Virus record (IMG/VR): IMGVR_UViG_3300009790_000076
Span: 1-23,342 of that record
Reading direction: 5' to 3' (one strand)
Length of the DNA: 23,342 nucleotides
DNA from: a virus
Part shown: in pieces, positions 1 to 23,342 of the stretch
How positions within the stretch are numbered: position 1 is the first letter of the stretch
Layout of the letters: each line of letters opens with the position of its first letter
Program-made: the position numbers and the translations under genes
Notes under the pieces: generated by a model
Database searches by the model: none
What the model was told of the DNA's origin: nothing
What the model saw: only the letters and a program-made list of their open reading frames with translations

Positions 1-822
1 GCCACCGGAGCCGCCGTTATTGCCTACTGAGTTATCATCGACGTAGGCACCGCCACCGCCACCGCCCTCTGCAGCAAAACCAAATGCCGAGCTATCGCCA
101 CCATTCGCCCCCTTGAAAGGCATGCCGGTGTACTCAGGATTCAGGCCTCCATCACCAACAATCACGGAATAAGTGCCCTCAGTGAGAGAGATAGAATCCT
201 CAACGACGCCGCCACCGCCACCACCGCCAGAGGCGCCATACTGCCAAGGCGAACCGCCTGCGCCCCCGCCTGCGACGATAAGAAACTCGACGTTTACGTC
301 TCCGCTAACAACAAGATCTCCGTCAGACTCGAAAACATGGACCCTGTACGCCTCGCCTTCGATATCGACGATACTCTCTATGCCGCCGGTCGCTGATCCA
401 GAGCTATCAGGTAGAGCACCTTTAAGGGGGCCACTCGCCACCGGCCGGTAGTACGGCAAGGCATTGAAAGTGACGCTCCCACTTGTGACGCTCCCGCCCG
501 TTGACCAGGTCGGCTCCTCGGTGCCGGTAGTGCCGGCGGCCGTCACTTTGTACACATATCCGTTAGGGGTAGACGGGTGGACTACCTGCCCCGCATTGAG
601 GGCGGTTTCCGGGGCGAAGTCGTCGCCGTATTCGTCCAGAGCCAACGCAATAACAGCGCCCGCCCAATCGTTGTAAGTGATATCGAACGTGCCATCGCCA
701 GCACTTTGCCCTTCAGCCACCACCTGCCGCCCTGCTGGGTCATCCTTGATGACAATCACATCACGGGCAGCAGCCACACCGTCGATTTTCACCGTGCCCG
801 CGACACGCGCCTGAGTAGCCAT
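1..822 (-). CDS. Glycine-rich tail fibre/adhesin, N-terminal part (runs off left edge)
   Basis: The reading frame starts at ATG 822-820, overlapping the previous stop as TGATG, and stays open for 274 codons to the window edge, so the C-terminus is missing. A GAGGGG ribosome site lies about 10 nt upstream. Residues 1-80 look like an Ig-like/carboxypeptidase-regulatory-type beta domain (RVAGTVKIDG). A segment with HPSTPNGYVYKVT and EPTW follows, a pattern often seen in phage tail proteins. From about residue 180 comes a domain beginning FLIVAGGGAGG with several runs of five or six glycines, as in phage glycine-rich adhesin domains. Family knowledge suggests a distal fibre that contacts the host surface. 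It is the last visible gene of the tail operon. The role as host-range determinant is inferred. The glycine-rich domain call is firm, but the exact family is not. Confidence 0.75.
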   Translation of the reverse strand, partial: MATQARVAGTVKIDGVAAARDVIVIKDDPAGRQVVAEGQSAGDGTFDITYNDWAGAVIALALDEYGDDFAPETALNAGQVVHPSTPNGYVYKVTAAGTTGTEEPTWSTGGSVTSGSVTFNALPYYRPVASGPLKGALPDSSGSATGGIESIVDIEGEAYRVHVFESDGDLVVSGDVNVEFLIVAGGGAGGSPWQYGASGGGGGGGVVEDSISLTEGTYSVIVGDGGLNPEYTGMPFKGANGGDSSAFGFAAEGGGGGGAYVDDNSVGNNGGSGG

Positions 823-2363
823 CAGTTGTGATCCCCTCGCAATTCGATTTTGAGCTGGTCGTCGTCGACGGTGGCCTGGCCGGGCAGGATGGTGCGAATC
901 ATCCAGAGCGGCGCGGCTGCGGCGTCGGTATCAAAGCGCGTGGTGTTGCCCACGCTCCAGCCAGCCCCCCAACCATCCGCCTTGATCGTGAAATACGGCG
1001 TGCCGGTTTGCGGGTTAACGGGGGAAAAATCCACTGCCGTGGTTCCAGTGGCCACAAGGCCACGCTCCTCGCCGTAAAGCTCGAAGGCAGTTGTCGACGT
1101 AAATTTGATCTTCCACCGCTCGGGCACACTGCCCCGGTTGTCGATCGCGACCGGGTAGGCGATCAAGTTGTAATTTGCGGTGGTCTCTTGGCCGGTGCCG
1201 TCGTAGTCGCCCGGGTCCACGGTGTAGCTCACCCAGTTGCCCACACGGGCGCGCAGGTCGCCCAGGTACACGGCTGAGGCGACCCATGTGTCATTGGCTG
1301 GAAAGTCGTGATAGAGCGGCTGCGCCAGTTGCAAGGTGCCATCGATACGGGCCTCTGTGCAGAGCGCCATATCGTCAATCCGGTGGACAAAATGCAAGTC
1401 ACCGCTCAGGGCGTTACTGTCGGCGTCTTGCGCAGTGAAAGGGTTGGCGAGGGTGGCAGTGCCGGCGGCCTTGTCCAGCGCATACATGGCCGGGTCCAGC
1501 CGCGTCCCTGCATCATCTTCAATCCAGGCATCGTGGAGCAGGTCCCGCCCGGCATTTACCACCAGGTCAGCCGCCGGGCTGGCGATCAAATCCTTCTGGG
1601 TATGGGTAAGCACGAGAATATCGGCATCACGCAAAATCGGGACGCGCCCGTCAGCAGGTAGCCGCACCGGATCGAGGCCCAAGATGGCAGGATCAAGCGG
1701 GATCTGCTTAAAGCTCACGGCGTTGTAGTACAGGCTTTCTGCCGTTACAGGCACCGGAAACTGAATCTCTACGATACCATCCTTGAGCGTTACCTCGCCG
1801 GTAATGCCATCACCGGTAACAACGCCCTGATTATCAGCCTCACCGTTGTACTGCTCGCCTGTCGCGAAGTTATTCGCACGCACCGTAAAACCATTCGGGC
1901 GCAGCGGCGCCGCCGCTGTTCGGAAGGTCGCCCCACGGGTGACGCTCCAGTCGTCGCCAATCAGAATTGAGATGGGCGTCACCGTGGCCGATACAGGCCG
2001 CCCTGAATAGCTACTGATCGTAACCAAGCCAGACGTATAACTAATCGTCCCGAGCGCAGTGCCCGTTCCCGTGGAGGTGCTGTAGTTTCTCAGCAGCCGC
2101 CCTTCTCCGTCATCGAACCACAGCTCACCATCAATACTTAACACGACGCTACCAGGCACAATCGGCGAGCTTTCCGTGATATAGAAACGCCAGTCTTGAT
2201 CTGTACCCGCAAACAGTTCTTGGGCCGTTACTTCTGTGCCCACCGCAAGTTGGTAGCCCACATCAACATCGTGGCTACGAATTTCCTCTGTCTCTACCGT
2301 TGCCCGGTACGACGCCGCCGAACCACTCAGGGAAGAACGGGTAACCATTCGGATTGTTGCCAT
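822..2363 (-). CDS. Tail tip/baseplate-like structural protein (513 aa)
   Basis: ATG at 2363 is preceded by AAGG 8 nt upstream. The gene begins 10 nt after the previous one and overlaps the fibre gene start. The protein is rich in beta-forming residues, with no membrane segment or signal peptide. Residues 68-130 carry a module of the pattern PGSVxLxxxGExxxDxGxG...GTIxYxxGxVxI, which also occurs four times in the neighbouring 649-residue protein. A weaker copy lies near residues 179-215 (GDGITGEVTLKDGIVEI). The second half (about 220-513) is unlike the neighbour and I do not recognise it. The position between tape measure and fibre supports a tail tip or baseplate component linking the tip to the fibre. 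That function is inferred from synteny, not from a catalytic motif. Confidence 0.7.
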   Translation of the reverse strand: MATIRMVTRSSLSGSAASYRATVETEEIRSHDVDVGYQLAVGTEVTAQELFAGTDQDWRFYITESSPIVPGSVVLSIDGELWFDDGEGRLLRNYSTSTGTGTALGTISYTSGLVTISSYSGRPVSATVTPISILIGDDWSVTRGATFRTAAAPLRPNGFTVRANNFATGEQYNGEADNQGVVTGDGITGEVTLKDGIVEIQFPVPVTAESLYYNAVSFKQIPLDPAILGLDPVRLPADGRVPILRDADILVLTHTQKDLIASPAADLVVNAGRDLLHDAWIEDDAGTRLDPAMYALDKAAGTATLANPFTAQDADSNALSGDLHFVHRIDDMALCTEARIDGTLQLAQPLYHDFPANDTWVASAVYLGDLRARVGNWVSYTVDPGDYDGTGQETTANYNLIAYPVAIDNRGSVPERWKIKFTSTTAFELYGEERGLVATGTTAVDFSPVNPQTGTPYFTIKADGWGAGWSVGNTTRFDTDAAAAPLWMIRTILPGQATVDDDQLKIELRGDHN

Positions 2364-2373
2364 GGTGCGAACC

Positions 2374-4323
2374 TTATGCGTTGACCTGTTTCAGGAAGGT
2401 GTTACCGGCGATAACAAGCTGGCCGGTGGAATAATTCACAGTACCGATCACCAAAAAATCCCGACGACTCATCAGCGATCCGTTGCCGTTGTCCGTTACC
2501 CAGTGGGATTGATCGATATAGTTAGTGCTAAGCGCTTGGCCAACATCATTCTCAACCGTCCGCTTGACCGACTTGGTGATGGTGAAATCCACAGAACCCG
2601 GCTCAATACTGGACTCCGTTTCAATCACGATATCCGCCTGGCTGCTGTTGTTCGGCACAGTGACAGTTGTTGTGAGTTCGGCCTCATCCTTGTGCGTGTA
2701 GTCGACAGTCACATCGCCATCAGCCTGAAGCGCGGTGGTAATATCAATTTCACCGCGGGCATAGTTAATCTGCCCTGTGGCGTCGCCGGTAATAGAACCA
2801 TCGCCGGCCACATCGGTGGCCGTTTTTTGAACACTACTGGCTTCCCAGGTGAGCGTGACAGACCCAGCAATCACCTTGCGGTTTGCCAGGCGAATGCTCA
2901 GTGGGGTAACGCCTGCGTAGGCCTCCGGGTCCTGAACGTAAATGCTTGAATCTGTCCAGCGGTAGAACAGCACAGAGCCCGCATCTGGCTGCGCTTGCAG
3001 AGTGGCGATAACACTGCCCGAGTCGTAACTCACCTGCCCTGAGCCATCGCCCACCATGTTGCCGGTGCCATCGTCACGGATGGTGTACCACTTGCCCAAA
3101 TAGCGATAACTCAGGTGCAAGGATAGCGGCGCGGGCGCCGGATCAAGGCTGAGCACGTAGTTGAAGTTTCGGTTGGAATCCTCAATCTCGATGCTACCGG
3201 TATTGGGAATTTGCTGGCGCAGAGCCCCCGGCTTATAGGAAAGCGTCGTTGCTCCAGACGCACTACCCGCCCATGCGATCGCGCCCGTTGCATAATCAAT
3301 GGTGCTGCCTTCCAGCCCAGCGGGCACCCCACCACTGGTGACGAATATGCCGCCCTTATCGCTGTAGGTTTCCCCTGCCAGCGAGAGCGACACAGACCCC
3401 GGCACCACCGCCGTTGGCAGCGTCGAGGTTTCGCCACTGGCCACCGTGACAGCCAAGCTCACGCTATCGGAGCCACCGGCCACAATTTGGTTCACATAAC
3501 CGCCAGGGCGCTGATCGATCACCGCCGTTTCATTGCTGGCCGTGGGGATGATCGGGGCGAAGGTATCCGCTACCTGAATGGATAAATCACCAGAAGACGC
3601 AGCCACCCCAAGCGAGGTGGAGCCGTAATACTTGGCAGACGTAGCGGGCTGGGTGCTATAGATCAGCGAAGGCCCCGCTGGTTTGGGGCTCGGGTCTGAC
3701 GCTGGGTAATCGCGCTTTAGCTCTGCAGACAGTTCCAGAATGTACTGGTCCGCTTTGAACGTGCGAATATCGCCACCGTTCACTTCATAAGTGAAGGTCG
3801 CTTCAATGTGCTGCACATTGAGGATCTTGATGAACTGCTGGGTGCCAAGATCCTGCCCCTCTTGGAGCAACAGCGTGTCGCCAATCTCAGGCGCCGCAAT
3901 ATTATTCACCGTTGGTGCATAGCAAATGATTGAGCGCTGACCTTGCAGCTGGTTGCCCCGCAGCGCCAAACCGGTGACAGGGCCGGGAATCACAAACGAT
4001 TCCACCCGCTGCCGCGCCGCCTCGCGCTCATCGTAGAAATCCTGCGTGGTAAACAGCAAACCAGACACATTCGGGTCCAGCGGCTGGGCACTCAAAATAG
4101 AGTGCGCATCCAGGTAAAGGTCTGTGGTTGCGGTATCCACTTTCAAAAACGCCTTACGCAAGCTCACTTCACCGTAGGTTCTGTCCACACGGGAAATGTC
4201 CTCGAAGAGGTTATTGATATCGCCATCAATCACCTCGTTATCCGTCATCTGCCCACCGCCATCTTCATTGTCGGTGAGCCGTTCGGGCTGCATCAGTTTG
4301 ATATCGTCGCTTGTGATCGCCAC
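2374..4323 (-). CDS. Large tail protein with tandem beta modules (649 aa)
   Basis: The start is GTG 4323, supported by AGGAG seven nt upstream. Residues 1-110 are polar and probably alpha-helical (DNEDGGGQMTDNEV, ISRVDRTYGEVSLRKAFLKV). Residues 110-250 are mixed beta. From about 306 onward there are four related modules of roughly 60 residues (near 306-365, 398-456, 485-543 and 574-640). Each starts close to xGSVxL and contains a glycine-rich turn followed by GxIxYxxGxI. There are no transmembrane segments. The gene follows the tape measure and a 127-residue gene in one closely spaced operon, so a tail tip, baseplate hub or side-fibre role is likely. I do not see NlpC/P60, lysozyme or gpJ-type signatures. 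It is virion-associated by context; the precise role is unknown. Confidence 0.7.
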   Translation of the reverse strand: MAITSDDIKLMQPERLTDNEDGGGQMTDNEVIDGDINNLFEDISRVDRTYGEVSLRKAFLKVDTATTDLYLDAHSILSAQPLDPNVSGLLFTTQDFYDEREAARQRVESFVIPGPVTGLALRGNQLQGQRSIICYAPTVNNIAAPEIGDTLLLQEGQDLGTQQFIKILNVQHIEATFTYEVNGGDIRTFKADQYILELSAELKRDYPASDPSPKPAGPSLIYSTQPATSAKYYGSTSLGVAASSGDLSIQVADTFAPIIPTASNETAVIDQRPGGYVNQIVAGGSDSVSLAVTVASGETSTLPTAVVPGSVSLSLAGETYSDKGGIFVTSGGVPAGLEGSTIDYATGAIAWAGSASGATTLSYKPGALRQQIPNTGSIEIEDSNRNFNYVLSLDPAPAPLSLHLSYRYLGKWYTIRDDGTGNMVGDGSGQVSYDSGSVIATLQAQPDAGSVLFYRWTDSSIYVQDPEAYAGVTPLSIRLANRKVIAGSVTLTWEASSVQKTATDVAGDGSITGDATGQINYARGEIDITTALQADGDVTVDYTHKDEAELTTTVTVPNNSSQADIVIETESSIEPGSVDFTITKSVKRTVENDVGQALSTNYIDQSHWVTDNGNGSLMSRRDFLVIGTVNYSTGQLVIAGNTFLKQVNA

Positions 4324-19136: not shown

Positions 19137-19733
19137 TCACGCCGCCATATCGGCGAACTGGTGCCACAGGTGCCGGAGCACTTTTTCCTCACAGGTAAAC
19201 AGCGTCGTCATCATGTCGTCAGCACGCGCAGCCCACGTTTCACCAAACCGGCTCTTGCTAATCTTGGCAATCGCCGCCCGATTCCTCACCGTCAGCACGC
19301 TCTGCCCTGTCGCCTTGCAGGCCGAACAATCCACCCACCGGTCCGCCATCCGCAACAACTCACCATCATCCGACATTTCCGGCTCCTGCTGCCACACCTT
19401 GCCACGCCCGCCACACGGGCTGCACCGCATCGGGTGAACCAGCTCAAACACACACAGCGTCGCCAGGCCCTCACAGTAATCCGTCTTCCAGCCACTGCGC
19501 ATACACCGCCGCCGGAACTCAGTCTGCACCCAGCCGGCCAAGGCCAGCTGCGCCTGGTTGTCATCACAGAACTTTGCCCGCCCCACTAACTCAGCCTCAA
19601 CAGGCAGGTTACCCATTCCCATAGCGCCCGCCACATCCTGTGGCGTCACTAGCACCACACTCCCACCAAAGCCACCACCATCAATCAGTAGCCCTTTAGC
19701 CGTCATCTTTGCCATCAACCGGATCGGATTCAT
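19137..19733 (-). CDS. Q-like late antitermination protein candidate (198 aa)
   Basis: ATG 19733 has AGGGGTG about seven nt upstream. The protein has a helical N-terminal half and a zinc-ribbon-like pair of knuckles: Cys104 and Cys107 in CSPCGGRG, and Cys136 and Cys139 in CSACKATG. The C-terminal half is basic and helical (NRAAIAKISKSRFGETW, CEEKVLRHLWHQF). CxxCxGxG knuckles before a basic tail are typical of phage 82-type antitermination proteins. The gene is directly followed by a candidate promoter and three terminators, then lysis genes, which is the Q genetic context. I infer that it binds polymerase or promoter DNA and lets it pass terminators. The family call is from pattern and context, not alignment. 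Confidence 0.7.
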   Translation of the reverse strand: MNPIRLMAKMTAKGLLIDGGGFGGSVVLVTPQDVAGAMGMGNLPVEAELVGRAKFCDDNQAQLALAGWVQTEFRRRCMRSGWKTDYCEGLATLCVFELVHPMRCSPCGGRGKVWQQEPEMSDDGELLRMADRWVDCSACKATGQSVLTVRNRAAIAKISKSRFGETWAARADDMMTTLFTCEEKVLRHLWHQFADMAA

Positions 19734-19851
19734 AAAACACCCCTGACCATTTTTGAATTGTTTGTCGTGGAACATGAAAAAATAGAAGGCCGGATGCAGG
19801 CCGGAGGGTAAGCCGGAGGGCAAGCATCCATTAACTGACTGATAAATAAGA

Positions 19852-19995
19852 AAAGGCCGGAGGGCCGGAAGGGCCGGAGGGTGTTTCTCGCGTGTGGGTA
19901 CAACAAAACGAGATAGTTGCTATCCACCACACCACATAACACGCACACACGCACGCGCGCGTTACCCCTCCGGCCCTTCCGGCCCTCCGGCCTTT
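19852..19995. repeat. Perfect 30-bp inverted repeat at the core of the array
   Basis: The arms 19852-19881 and 19966-19995 are exact reverse complements over 30 bases, starting AAAGGCCGGAGGG and ending CCCTCCGGCCTTT, with an 84-nt centre. Each arm contains three CCGGAGGG-type units. The structure could extrude as a cruciform or fold as a very stable hairpin in RNA. Confidence 0.9.
19939..19962. other. Alternating purine-pyrimidine tract (Z-DNA-prone)
   Basis: Twenty-four consecutive bases alternate purine and pyrimidine, beginning ACACGCACAC and ending CGCGCGCGT-like, inside the centre of the inverted repeat. Such tracts favour the Z form under supercoiling and can flank easily opened DNA. 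The functional role is unknown. Confidence 0.6.
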
Positions 19996-20057
19996 CGTTA
20001 CTATTCAACGGCTTACGAAAAACCGAACCTCCGGCCACCCTCCGGCCTACCTCCGGC

Positions 20058-21716
20058 CTAGTCATGTGCTGGCTCCAAATTCTTCGCCCAGCGATCAGCA
20101 AAGCCACCCAGCCACTCCTTCTGCGCCGTGCCCGTCGGGGGCTCATCCACCTGAATAAACGTGCCCTTGCGCTCGTTAACACCCTGCTGATACTTCACAT
20201 CGCGCCGCCGGCGCTCCCTACCGGAAAGGGCATTGGAAAACCGCTCACGCGTCATCGCACGCTCACCCGCATCCGAACACCACTGCCGATACACCTGGTA
20301 CAGATGCATCACCAGGCAAGTCTCATAGGGATACCGGGGCGCCAAGTGCCCAGCCTTCCACTCCATGTGGAACAGATCCCAACTCGGCCTACCAAAATCA
20401 ATCAACCGAGCCTTCGCCTCAGTCATCGGCGGCTCCCGGTGCGTATCAAACGCCGCAGCCGTTTCCTCCCCCCGGTCCTGCCACTGCATACCGCGGCGAA
20501 CCAGCCAGCCATAGAACGCTTCCACACCCCCGTTGTTCACCTCATGCAACACACCCTGCTTCAAAGACTCAGGCAACTTAGTGCAAGGCCACACAACGAG
20601 CATTCGGCGGTCAGTAGGCTCCACAGGGAAAGGTTGGATCTCATTAGAAAGGAACGCCGCATTCATGTGGTTAGCCTCTTCCCAGCCACTCACAAACTTC
20701 TTCTCGATGCGGTGCGTCTCACCGGTAATCATGTGCTTCAGCGTACCGGTGTGGCTGTACTTCTGATCGCGGCTGAAAATCTCCTCAAACAGCCCGAAGA
20801 GCTTCTGGCTGCGCCAATCCGTGTACTGCGATTCCAACTGGTGCTGCCCCAGCGTCGCCGCATACTCACCGTACATTGGCTTAATAACCCGCTCGAACAG
20901 CAAACTCTTGCCCGTGCCCTGCGTCTCCGAATGCATCAGCACCGCAGTCGCCATCTTCGCCCCCACATGCTGCAGCGGGTAAGCAAACCAGCACATCAAC
21001 CACTCAAACACCACAGGGTCGTTATTACACAAATGATCAACCAACTGGCGGATGTGGTCGCACCGGCCAGGGGCATTCACCGGCTTCAACGGCAGCCCCC
21101 GGAACATATTGATATAGCCATCTTCAGGCCGGTGCTGCTGAATCGGGTCGAACACCAACTTCTCGCGGTCAATAACCTCGCGCTCAGGGTGCTCCAACCA
21201 CTGCGAATACCAACGGTGTAGCATCGGCTTCAAATCATTCAACGGCACCACCTCACGCCGCTCACGGTCCCAAGCATTCTGCGAAGGGTAAAGCAGCACA
21301 TACCGCCGCAACGCTTGCGACAGCTCCCCTCCCCCCCTTTTTTGGGCGGCAGACGCCTCACGGCACACATCCGCGTGCTTCACCGTCCGGCGCTGGTCGC
21401 TGTCCTTCCACTGCTTATAAACATCACTACCGAGCCAATCCCTGACCTGCTTTTCCTTCAGCAGCTTCTTTTCATGCGTATCCCAAATGCGCCCTTCAGG
21501 CACCGTCCACGCAAACCGCTTAAAGGCTTCATCAAGGTCTGGCACCTCGGCCACATCAGAATCGGAGCTCCCAACATCAGAGGGCGCGGGAGACCCGGAA
21601 TCATTAGCAGCAGCCTGTAACGCAGCAGCCAGCTGCTCCTTCAACAACACCTTTACTTTGGCCTTACCCAGCTCAGCAACCAGGTCATTCCAATCACCAT
21701 GCCAGGGCTCAGTCAC
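20058..21716 (-). CDS. SF3-like replicative helicase, DUF5906-type (552 aa)
   Basis: The start is GTG 21716 with GGGGG six nt upstream. Residues 264-271 (ETQGTGKS) form Walker A. LFGLFEEIF (about 307-315) is the likely Walker B, LSNEIQPF (356-363) a sensor-1 asparagine region, and DRRMLVVWP (369-377) a probable arginine finger. The N-terminal third contains a D/S-rich linker (about 38-62) and WTVPEGRIWD. The C-terminal domain (about 440-552) may bind DNA. Such proteins act as ring helicases in phage and plasmid replication, often next to a Toprim primase as here. The stop codon lies within the mirrored CCGGAGGG array, which could be its binding site. The origin-binding role is an inference. 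Confidence 0.85.
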   Translation of the reverse strand: MTEPWHGDWNDLVAELGKAKVKVLLKEQLAAALQAAANDSGSPAPSDVGSSDSDVAEVPDLDEAFKRFAWTVPEGRIWDTHEKKLLKEKQVRDWLGSDVYKQWKDSDQRRTVKHADVCREASAAQKRGGGELSQALRRYVLLYPSQNAWDRERREVVPLNDLKPMLHRWYSQWLEHPEREVIDREKLVFDPIQQHRPEDGYINMFRGLPLKPVNAPGRCDHIRQLVDHLCNNDPVVFEWLMCWFAYPLQHVGAKMATAVLMHSETQGTGKSLLFERVIKPMYGEYAATLGQHQLESQYTDWRSQKLFGLFEEIFSRDQKYSHTGTLKHMITGETHRIEKKFVSGWEEANHMNAAFLSNEIQPFPVEPTDRRMLVVWPCTKLPESLKQGVLHEVNNGGVEAFYGWLVRRGMQWQDRGEETAAAFDTHREPPMTEAKARLIDFGRPSWDLFHMEWKAGHLAPRYPYETCLVMHLYQVYRQWCSDAGERAMTRERFSNALSGRERRRRDVKYQQGVNERKGTFIQVDEPPTGTAQKEWLGGFADRWAKNLEPAHD

Positions 21717-21738
21717 ACATCACCCCCATGCAGCCGGC

Positions 21739-21767
21739 TTGCCTTATCGGCCCCCGGCCATTACAAA
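21739..21767 (+). promoter_or_regulatory. Candidate promoter of the plus-strand membrane protein gene
   Basis: TTGCCT at 21739-21744 and TACAAA at 21762-21767 are 17 nt apart, matching sigma70 boxes moderately. It would drive the solitary plus-strand gene starting at 21805. Confidence 0.35.
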
Positions 21768-21804
21768 CAACAGAGGAACTCGTAAAAACACCACTGGGGG
21801 GAAA

Positions 21805-22308
21805 ATGAACAACAAGCCCAAAATCATTCTGGCCACCGCCATAGGCATCGGCTTCTGGGGACTCATCATTGGCAGCATCATTGGGGATAACCAGGCTAAA
21901 CCCGCCCCGGAACCGGCCCCCAAACAAGAGACAGCAAAGCCCAAAGCCGCCCACCCAGCCAAAAACGTAAGCAGCTTCAAGCAAGCCCTGGAAGCCTGCC
22001 CCAACACACCCGCCTGCATTCAACAAGGGCTGCTGGCCGACTACGGCAACATCTGCAAAAACTGGATCAAACAAGAAACAGACAAGCCCTTCACCGCTTC
22101 CAGCGAAGGCAAGCTGAATAGAATTTTCTTTGAGCACAAAACCACAGGCCCAGGAACCTACCGGCTGGAAGGCACCGCCATCTACGATCACGCAACCGGC
22201 ATTCGTTATTGGTATGGCTGCGAAGTAAATACCCAAACCGGAGACATCATCGCCATCGCACCGCCCGTTTCTGTAGGAACAAAACGGCAGTACAAGCCCT
22301 TCAACTAA
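21805..22308 (+). CDS. Membrane-anchored cysteine-containing protein, unknown function (167 aa)
   Basis: ATG 21805 follows GGGGGGAAA. An N-terminal hydrophobic segment (residues 7-26, IILATAIGIGFWGLIIGSII) acts as a signal anchor. It is followed by a proline/alanine/lysine linker (about 32-54, PAPEPAPKQETAKPK) and a soluble domain of about 110 residues. That domain has four cysteines (ALEACPNTPAC, NICKNW, WYGCEV) and a beta-rich end with GPGTYRLEGTAIYD. Most of it would lie in the periplasm, where two disulfides are plausible. It is the only plus-strand gene in the replication block, convergent with the primase (2 nt apart) and divergent from the helicase, as expected of phage cargo genes. 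A lysogenic-conversion or superinfection role is possible, but I see no recognised family. Confidence 0.78.
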   Translation: MNNKPKIILATAIGIGFWGLIIGSIIGDNQAKPAPEPAPKQETAKPKAAHPAKNVSSFKQALEACPNTPACIQQGLLADYGNICKNWIKQETDKPFTASSEGKLNRIFFEHKTTGPGTYRLEGTAIYDHATGIRYWYGCEVNTQTGDIIAIAPPVSVGTKRQYKPFN

Positions 22309-22310
22309 AC

Positions 22311-23342
22311 TCATGCCGCCTCCCCTTCCGGGAAATGCGGCACCAGCATCACCCCCCCAAACTCAGCCTGGCAGCGCTCTGCAGCATCTTGCCCAGCGCG
22401 CTTACCAGTGCGGGGGTTAACCTTATCGTTGTCAGCCAGCCAGATCGGCGTCTTACCCTCCAGCAGCCCGGCATCACGAAACGCCTCCGCCACCGTAAAC
22501 ATATTGCCGGAATCAAAGCAGGCCACTACCGGCCAGCCAGCGCCAATCTCATAAGCCGTTGCTGCCGTCGCATAGCCCTCAGCAAAACCCACCAGCTCAG
22601 AGCCATTCAAGTCACCCAACAAATGGCAGCAGCCTTTTTTGCGGGAATATTTCGGGAATAATTTAGTGCCCTGCTCATTCACCGTCTGAATCGCCCACAC
22701 CTTGCCAGCGGCATCTCGCATGGGCACCGCAATAGCGCCGCTATCCAGCTTCAGAAAAGAAATATGGTCCGGCCGGGGCTTGGCCAGGGTATTGAAGAAA
22801 GCCCGAATGTCCGGCCCGGTTTTCACCTCACAAGCCATCGCCTGGTCATCGATCACCAACAGCGCCGCATGCTTGAAAAAACGAATACCGTGGGCACCCA
22901 CCCCTTTCTTTCCCAAATAAGCACTGCGGCCAATGGACTGGGTATGGTTATCCCAAATGGCCTGGCAAGCGTCAGCCACCGCCTCTTGCAGCTGAGCAGC
23001 TCGCTCCGCATCAGCCTCCAACTCTTTCTGGCGAACAGCCCGGCGGGCCTTTGCCTCATCGGCAAGCGCCCGCTTTTCCTCTGCCGTAAGCTCACGCTTG
23101 GGCCGCTGCCAGCCACCCTCTATCGCCAACTTAATCAGCGTACCAATACTGTAATGGCCAGCCTTCGCGCTGCGCCAGGTGGCCTTGCAGGCCCCCTTGT
23201 CATAACTCTGGCCCTGCTGGCTCCAGCTATCGAACAGCTCAAAGCCCGCCTCGCCGTATTCATCTTTCAGTGCCCCCGCCATCGGGAACCAAACCGTTTC
23301 CCGGTCTCCATCCGCGCTGACATACAGCAACGCCTGCTCCGC
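22311..23342 (-). CDS. PriCT/Toprim primase, C-terminal part (5' end beyond right edge)
   Basis: The frame is open to the window edge (343 residues visible), so the true start lies outside. First comes a PriCT-2-like segment (WFPMAGALKDEYGEAGFELF, SYDKGACKATW, YSIGTLIKLA), then a charged coiled coil (about 80-120), and a Toprim domain. The Toprim motifs are the catalytic Glu in GFAEGYATAATAYE (about residue 255) and the DxD pair in WLADND (about 304-306). PriCT/Toprim proteins make RNA primers or act as primase-like subunits beside SF3 helicases. An N-terminal prim-pol or zinc-binding domain may lie beyond the edge. The gene precedes the helicase on the same strand, with the plus-strand gene between them. 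Confidence 0.85.
   Translation of the reverse strand, partial: AEQALLYVSADGDRETVWFPMAGALKDEYGEAGFELFDSWSQQGQSYDKGACKATWRSAKAGHYSIGTLIKLAIEGGWQRPKRELTAEEKRALADEAKARRAVRQKELEADAERAAQLQEAVADACQAIWDNHTQSIGRSAYLGKKGVGAHGIRFFKHAALLVIDDQAMACEVKTGPDIRAFFNTLAKPRPDHISFLKLDSGAIAVPMRDAAGKVWAIQTVNEQGTKLFPKYSRKKGCCHLLGDLNGSELVGFAEGYATAATAYEIGAGWPVVACFDSGNMFTVAEAFRDAGLLEGKTPIWLADNDKVNPRTGKRAGQDAAERCQAEFGGVMLVPHFPEGEAA

Follow-up and report, generated by a model that had tools for sequence, protein, structure and literature searches.

A mirror-symmetric array of twelve short repeat units directly follows the gene of a predicted SF3 helicase in a 23,342-nucleotide stretch of phage DNA (the window; IMG/VR virus record IMGVR_UViG_3300009790_000076, positions 1 to 23,342). 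The array is very probably the replication origin of a family of temperate phages, with its units serving as iterons bound by the adjacent, self-loading helicase. The preliminary description had proposed just such an origin, and the proposal is now supported by co-occurrence of array and helicase among relatives, by the hexameric SF3 fold and winged helix predicted for the helicase, and by the literature on SaPI Rep and Cch2. (GC skew, suggested as a check, does not switch at the array, be it in the window or in either of two long relatives; skew follows gene direction and was discarded as a marker of the origin.)

The window carries lambda-like structural and lysis genes, a Q-like antiterminator gene adjoining the array (19137-19733, - strand; phrog_127, with the ATG read by us at 19733), the array itself, the DUF5906 SF3 helicase gene (20058-21716, - strand) and a PriCT-2/Toprim_3 primase gene that is truncated by the window end (22311-23342, - strand). 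Near relatives are found in Alcanivorax genomes. Between the primase and helicase genes, and antisense to them, is a 167-residue ORF beginning MNNKPKIILATAIGIGFWGLIIG (21805-22308, + strand); it has a likely N-terminal membrane segment, gives no match above cut-off in a Pfam search, and resembles an inserted accessory gene. The overlapping 201-residue minus-strand ORF (21709-22314) is probably an antisense shadow and was rejected as a gene. In the tail region, the adjacent proteins encoded at 2374-4323 and 822-2363 (- strand) match the first and second half of a single large family (positions 1-656 and 683-1197 of phrog_6128, respectively): a split gene.

Architecture of the array

The array (19788-20059) comprises twelve units sharing the core CCGGA, six on the + strand and six inverted. 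Exact GGCCGGAGGG accounts for six of the twelve, and the remainder differ outside CCGGA (variants CCGGAAGG, present twice, CCGGATGC and CCGGAGGT). On the Q side, an outer triple of spaced units (19788-19820, + strand; units at 19788-19797, 19799-19808 and 19811-19820) is followed, after a gap, by an inner triple of abutting units (19855-19881, + strand; GGCCGGAGGG, GGCCGGAAGG and GGCCGGAGGG at 19855-19864, 19863-19872 and 19872-19881). Beyond the centre comes the mirror image: an inner triple with steps of 8 and 9 bp (19966-19992, - strand; 19966-19975, 19975-19984 and 19983-19992) and an outer triple with steps of 11-12 bp (20028-20059, - strand; 20028-20036, 20038-20047 and 20050-20059). Start-to-start steps across the whole array are thus 11, 11, then 44, then 8, 9, then the centre, then 9, 8, then 44, then 12, 11. 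The 6 + 6 count, the internal layout and the perfect 30-bp inverted repeat (arms 19852-19881 and 19966-19995) are as the preliminary description had them. So is the placement: the outermost unit shares 2 bases with the helicase stop codon (20058-20060), and the array fills a gene-free stretch of 324 bp between that stop and the Q-like ATG at 19733. In a search for two mirrored inner triples (3 + 3) the array scores 46 of 48, against 36 for the second-best site in the window and a maximum of 38 among 783 dinucleotide shuffles of the corresponding regions of relatives. Exact GGCCGGAGGG does not occur elsewhere in the window, nor does GGCCGGANGG occur outside the array in three relatives of 39-43 kb.

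The gaps between outer and inner triples had been described as non-complementary, with selection seeming to act on the units. Non-complementarity stands, but the gaps hold a common, mirrored motif of their own. (The motif is an IHF-like site: TATCAGTCAGTTA in the Q-side gap, 19832-19844, - strand, matching 9 of 9 consensus positions, and ATTCAACGGCTTA in the helicase-side gap, 20003-20015, + strand, matching 8 of 9; each lies 11 nt from its inner triple.) IHF-like sites matching 8-9 of 9 positions are present in both gaps in 17 of 41 lineages, and in these 17 they are mirrored in orientation, with the same offset from the inner triple on the two sides. Taken singly, 41% of left and 61% of right gaps reach 8/9 of the consensus, as compared with 3% and 6% of shuffles. 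The GGGT-type clades are without IHF-like sites in the gaps; what they have instead is one more unit, inverted, within the gap, or direct repeats as right outer units. Changes in the orientation of the outer units seem to go along with changes in IHF use. Direct rather than inverted right outer units are seen in L090, in L338-L352 and at Pseudomonas-type loci.

The central region between the two halves (19897-19949) is not complementary in relatives and is the proposed site of unwinding and loading. Just inside the inner triple on the helicase side lies an alternating GC element (CGCACGCGCGCG, 19950-19961). A GCGCGC-like element is found here in 48 of 49 lineages (shuffles predict 20), with a median distance of 5 nt to the last unit of the first inner triple and independently of unit sequence. 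It is mostly confined to the helicase side and mostly absent from the opposite side, which makes the centre polar. The opposite edge of the centre has a CACACGCGAGA element (19886-19896, - strand), with CGCGAG/ATGCGAG-like counterparts in 27 of 49 lineages.

The array and its units among helicase relatives

Viral contigs, genomes of species and annotated phages supplied relatives of the helicase at 261 distinct loci; the family includes a prophage of Alcanivorax sp. DSM 26293 (L092) and Pseudomonas phages such as PG1. Relatives with the same helicase lacking any array would, according to the preliminary description, have spoken against an origin; the search turned up an array in the same position in nearly all of them, made of units particular to each lineage. 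In 220 of the 261 loci an inverted inner triple directly 3' of the helicase gene outscores all 783 shuffles, and most of the other 41 hold 11-14 copies in other groupings (4 + 2 followed by 2 + 3-4 in a Halomonas-type clade). When the loci are grouped into 62 lineages at 80% helicase identity, copy numbers have a median of 12 (7 in shuffles) and amount to 11-13 in 48 lineages, in counts that tolerate one mismatch and vary with the search used. Among the relatives searched, four distant loci (L337, L353, L168 and L047) have no clear array, and no array follows the helicase gene of the more remote SF3 phages VP2, M6 and AXL_3.

At two loci with TGCAGGGT/TACAGGGT-type units, L040 and L047, an extra ORF stands between the helicase stop and the array position; at L040 the array is intact ~450 bp further downstream, beyond that ORF. 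The annotated records inspected either leave the array without a mark or place a small predicted gene over it. Stenotrophomonas phage S1 (L384) has an array of unit TGTGCGGG (score 43) lying within what is annotated as a hypothetical gene, gp2 (2454-2804). Arrays like it may be concealed by false genes.

Phages differ in the unit itself, with copy number and spacing kept. At least 30 types are counted by us, among them CCGGAGG, CCCAGGGT, TTACCGGA, TGCCGTTCA, AGTTGAA and TGTGTTGGGT. In two loci whose helicases are 86% identical (L024 and L027), the same change, TGCCGGA to TACCGGA, is found in 11 of 12 units and in either unit orientation (as counted by us from the alignment). Judged by such comparisons, all repeats within one phage change in concert, on a fixed layout and at a fixed place behind the helicase gene.

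The adjacent helicase as candidate reader of the unit

The window helicase matches DUF5906 (PF19263) at 67.7 bits and is modelled with a mean pLDDT of 91.5; fold matches of the model include NrS-1 (Z 28.6), SaPI5 Rep (Z 18.0), D5, AAV Rep and E1. It is predicted to be a hexameric SF3 enzyme of the D5/NrS-1/SaPI-Rep kind, hexamer formation being judged from the fold. At its C-terminus is a predicted winged helix, with the recognition helix at residues 490-498 and wing strands at residues 502-522. Modelled alone (pLDDT 91.3), this domain weakly resembles origin-binding winged helices: Cdc6/Orc1 at Z 5.5 and the P4 origin-binding domain (1ka8) at Z 4.3, the latter being one among many winged-helix matches.

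Across 33 balanced lineages, unit distance correlates best with helicase residues 488-507, that is, with the recognition helix and the start of the wing (partial r 0.246; pointwise p 0.0005; family-wise p 0.054, which is marginal after multiple testing). Windows printed as 313-332 and 177-196 (labels 2 too high) are nearly as strong, and with uneven sampling the scan gave no clear peak along the helicase. Unit distance follows the helicase when the primase is given (0.18) and does not follow the primase when the helicase is given (-0.04). Separate clades with the similar units GGCCGGAGG and GCCTAGGG have a common helix start, RE(R/K)FS. Threonine at residue 491 accompanies units ending in GGT (20/20 against 5/2, a strong raw table that comes down to few independent changes in the independent-pairs test). 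Together these observations are suggestive, not proof, that the recognition helix of the adjacent helicase reads the unit.

By analogy with SaPI Rep and Cch2, initiation might proceed as follows. The C-terminal winged helix of the SF3 helicase would bind one unit per subunit, so that six units per side would correspond to one hexamer per half and two hexamers would be assembled head-to-head ("two hexamers" rests on the count of 12 and on the literature). IHF, where its sites occur, would fold the outer against the inner triple. After melting the central region the hexamers would load and travel outwards, and the first primers would come from the adjacent primase.

Other readings, known systems and significance

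An inverted structure could serve an initiator in a different way. Berkner et al. describe a stem-loop that follows the replication gene of Bordetella phage BIP-1, and they suggest that it is an origin (PMC4234260). pRN1 depends on a symmetric stem downstream of the gene for its SF3 protein, the stem sequence not being conserved (PMC4234260). By analogy, the array might be a cruciform whose extruded structure, rather than unit sequence, is recognized, and the perfect 30-bp inner inverted repeat in the window would suit that role. We consider this very improbable: extrusion needs neither six near-identical units per arm, nor an 8-9/11 bp periodicity, nor spaced outer units, which in some clades are in direct orientation, and the units are conserved more than the pairing. 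The pRN1/BIP-1/BPP-1 systems do resemble the array in having an inverted structure downstream of an SF3 replication gene, poorly conserved in sequence and conserved in layout, but theirs is described as a stem-loop recognized by structure (PMC4234260). BPP-1 has 2 + 2 inverted, 9-bp-spaced units (TTGCCTCG) ~460-560 bp past the stop codon. These sit further downstream than the published stem-loop, which goes against the expectation that the BIP-1 stem-loop is this array.

A structured RNA was the alternative offered in the preliminary description: the array, lying between the co-directional helicase and Q genes, would be transcribed as a long hairpin and act as terminator, stability element or regulator. 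The transcript does fold very strongly (-190 kcal/mol, z -14.5), as is expected of any inverted array. If pairing were important, mirror partners should exceed other unit pairs in identity, and the excess is slight (0.903, as compared with 0.878 for non-mirror pairs across arms and 0.879 within an arm). The right outer units of Pseudomonas and Halomonas-type clades are direct repeats and cannot pair. On the unit-identity comparison and these direct outer units we reject a hairpin as the main function. Moreover, the gaps and centre lack complementarity, a hairpin has no need of repeated units, an Rfam search gave no match at the gathering score, and no terminator is found beyond chance. A structured RNA is thus very unlikely, and the strong predicted fold is a by-product of the inverted repeats.

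That the array binds some other protein (a partition/centromere protein, the Q-like protein or a transcription regulator) and is not an origin is very unlikely: it does also adjoin a Q-like gene in the lineages inspected, and iteron-like arrays can serve partition, but no ParA/ParB is seen in the window, Q binding elements usually lie downstream of Q, a detectable relative of the Q protein is present in only 16 loci while the array is kept nonetheless, and array presence tracks the helicase subfamily, the remoter SF3 helicases of VP2, M6 and AXL_3 being without it.

An origin read by the adjacent helicase has close precedents. SaPI Rep and Cch2 each use the C-terminal domain to bind iterons that lie just past the protein's own gene, and two hexamers have been proposed (PMC7581432). 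The likeness to SaPI and SCCmec Cch2 lies in an origin (a putative one for Cch2) just downstream of the helicase gene, short iterons and a D5-type/AAA+ hexameric helicase (PMC7581432); a predicted hexameric SF3/D5-type helicase and short repeated units immediately downstream are what the window holds. In contrast to the SaPI/Cch2 systems (Cch2 has three AAGTG iterons), the present type has ~12 short units in a mirrored 3-gap-3 / 3-gap-3 layout with mirrored IHF-like sites, and occurs in phages of Gram-negative hosts with >30 unit types on one layout. Phage P4 alpha protein combines an SF3-like helicase, a C-terminal winged-helix origin-binding domain and primase activity with an iteron origin, but its similarity is low, its primase arrangement and array layout are different, and P4's second site is crr. 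SV40 T antigen and papillomavirus E1 form SF3 double hexamers at a melting region flanked by short units, both direct and inverted. Their DNA-binding domain, on the other hand, is N-terminal and their units are far fewer, even though E1 is among the fold matches here. A self-loading helicase with downstream iterons is a known plan, of which the array would be a variant of the SaPI/Cch2/P4 type. In the open-access literature we found no description of the ~12-unit mirror layout, of mirrored IHF-like sites, or of unit exchange on a fixed layout.

As a tentative proposal, more doubtful than the origin itself, the array might be viewed as an origin whose chassis is fixed and whose address can be exchanged. 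Its 12 sites would match the 12 subunits of a head-to-head double hexamer, and sites and recognition helix would switch together. Phages may be driven to switch when they compete with relatives or satellites of the same layout that infect the same cell, and replication incompatibility groups among phages would be the outcome. If the origin reading is true, the recognition helices and their cognate units, paired by nature in dozens of cases, would open the DNA code of a replicative helicase to testing, and they pose the question of how 12 dispersed sites change together while the origin stays functional. The reading would also provide a predicted, sequence-recognizable origin for temperate phages and prophages of a large family whose hosts span Pseudomonas, Alcanivorax, Marinobacter, Halomonas, Stenotrophomonas and others.
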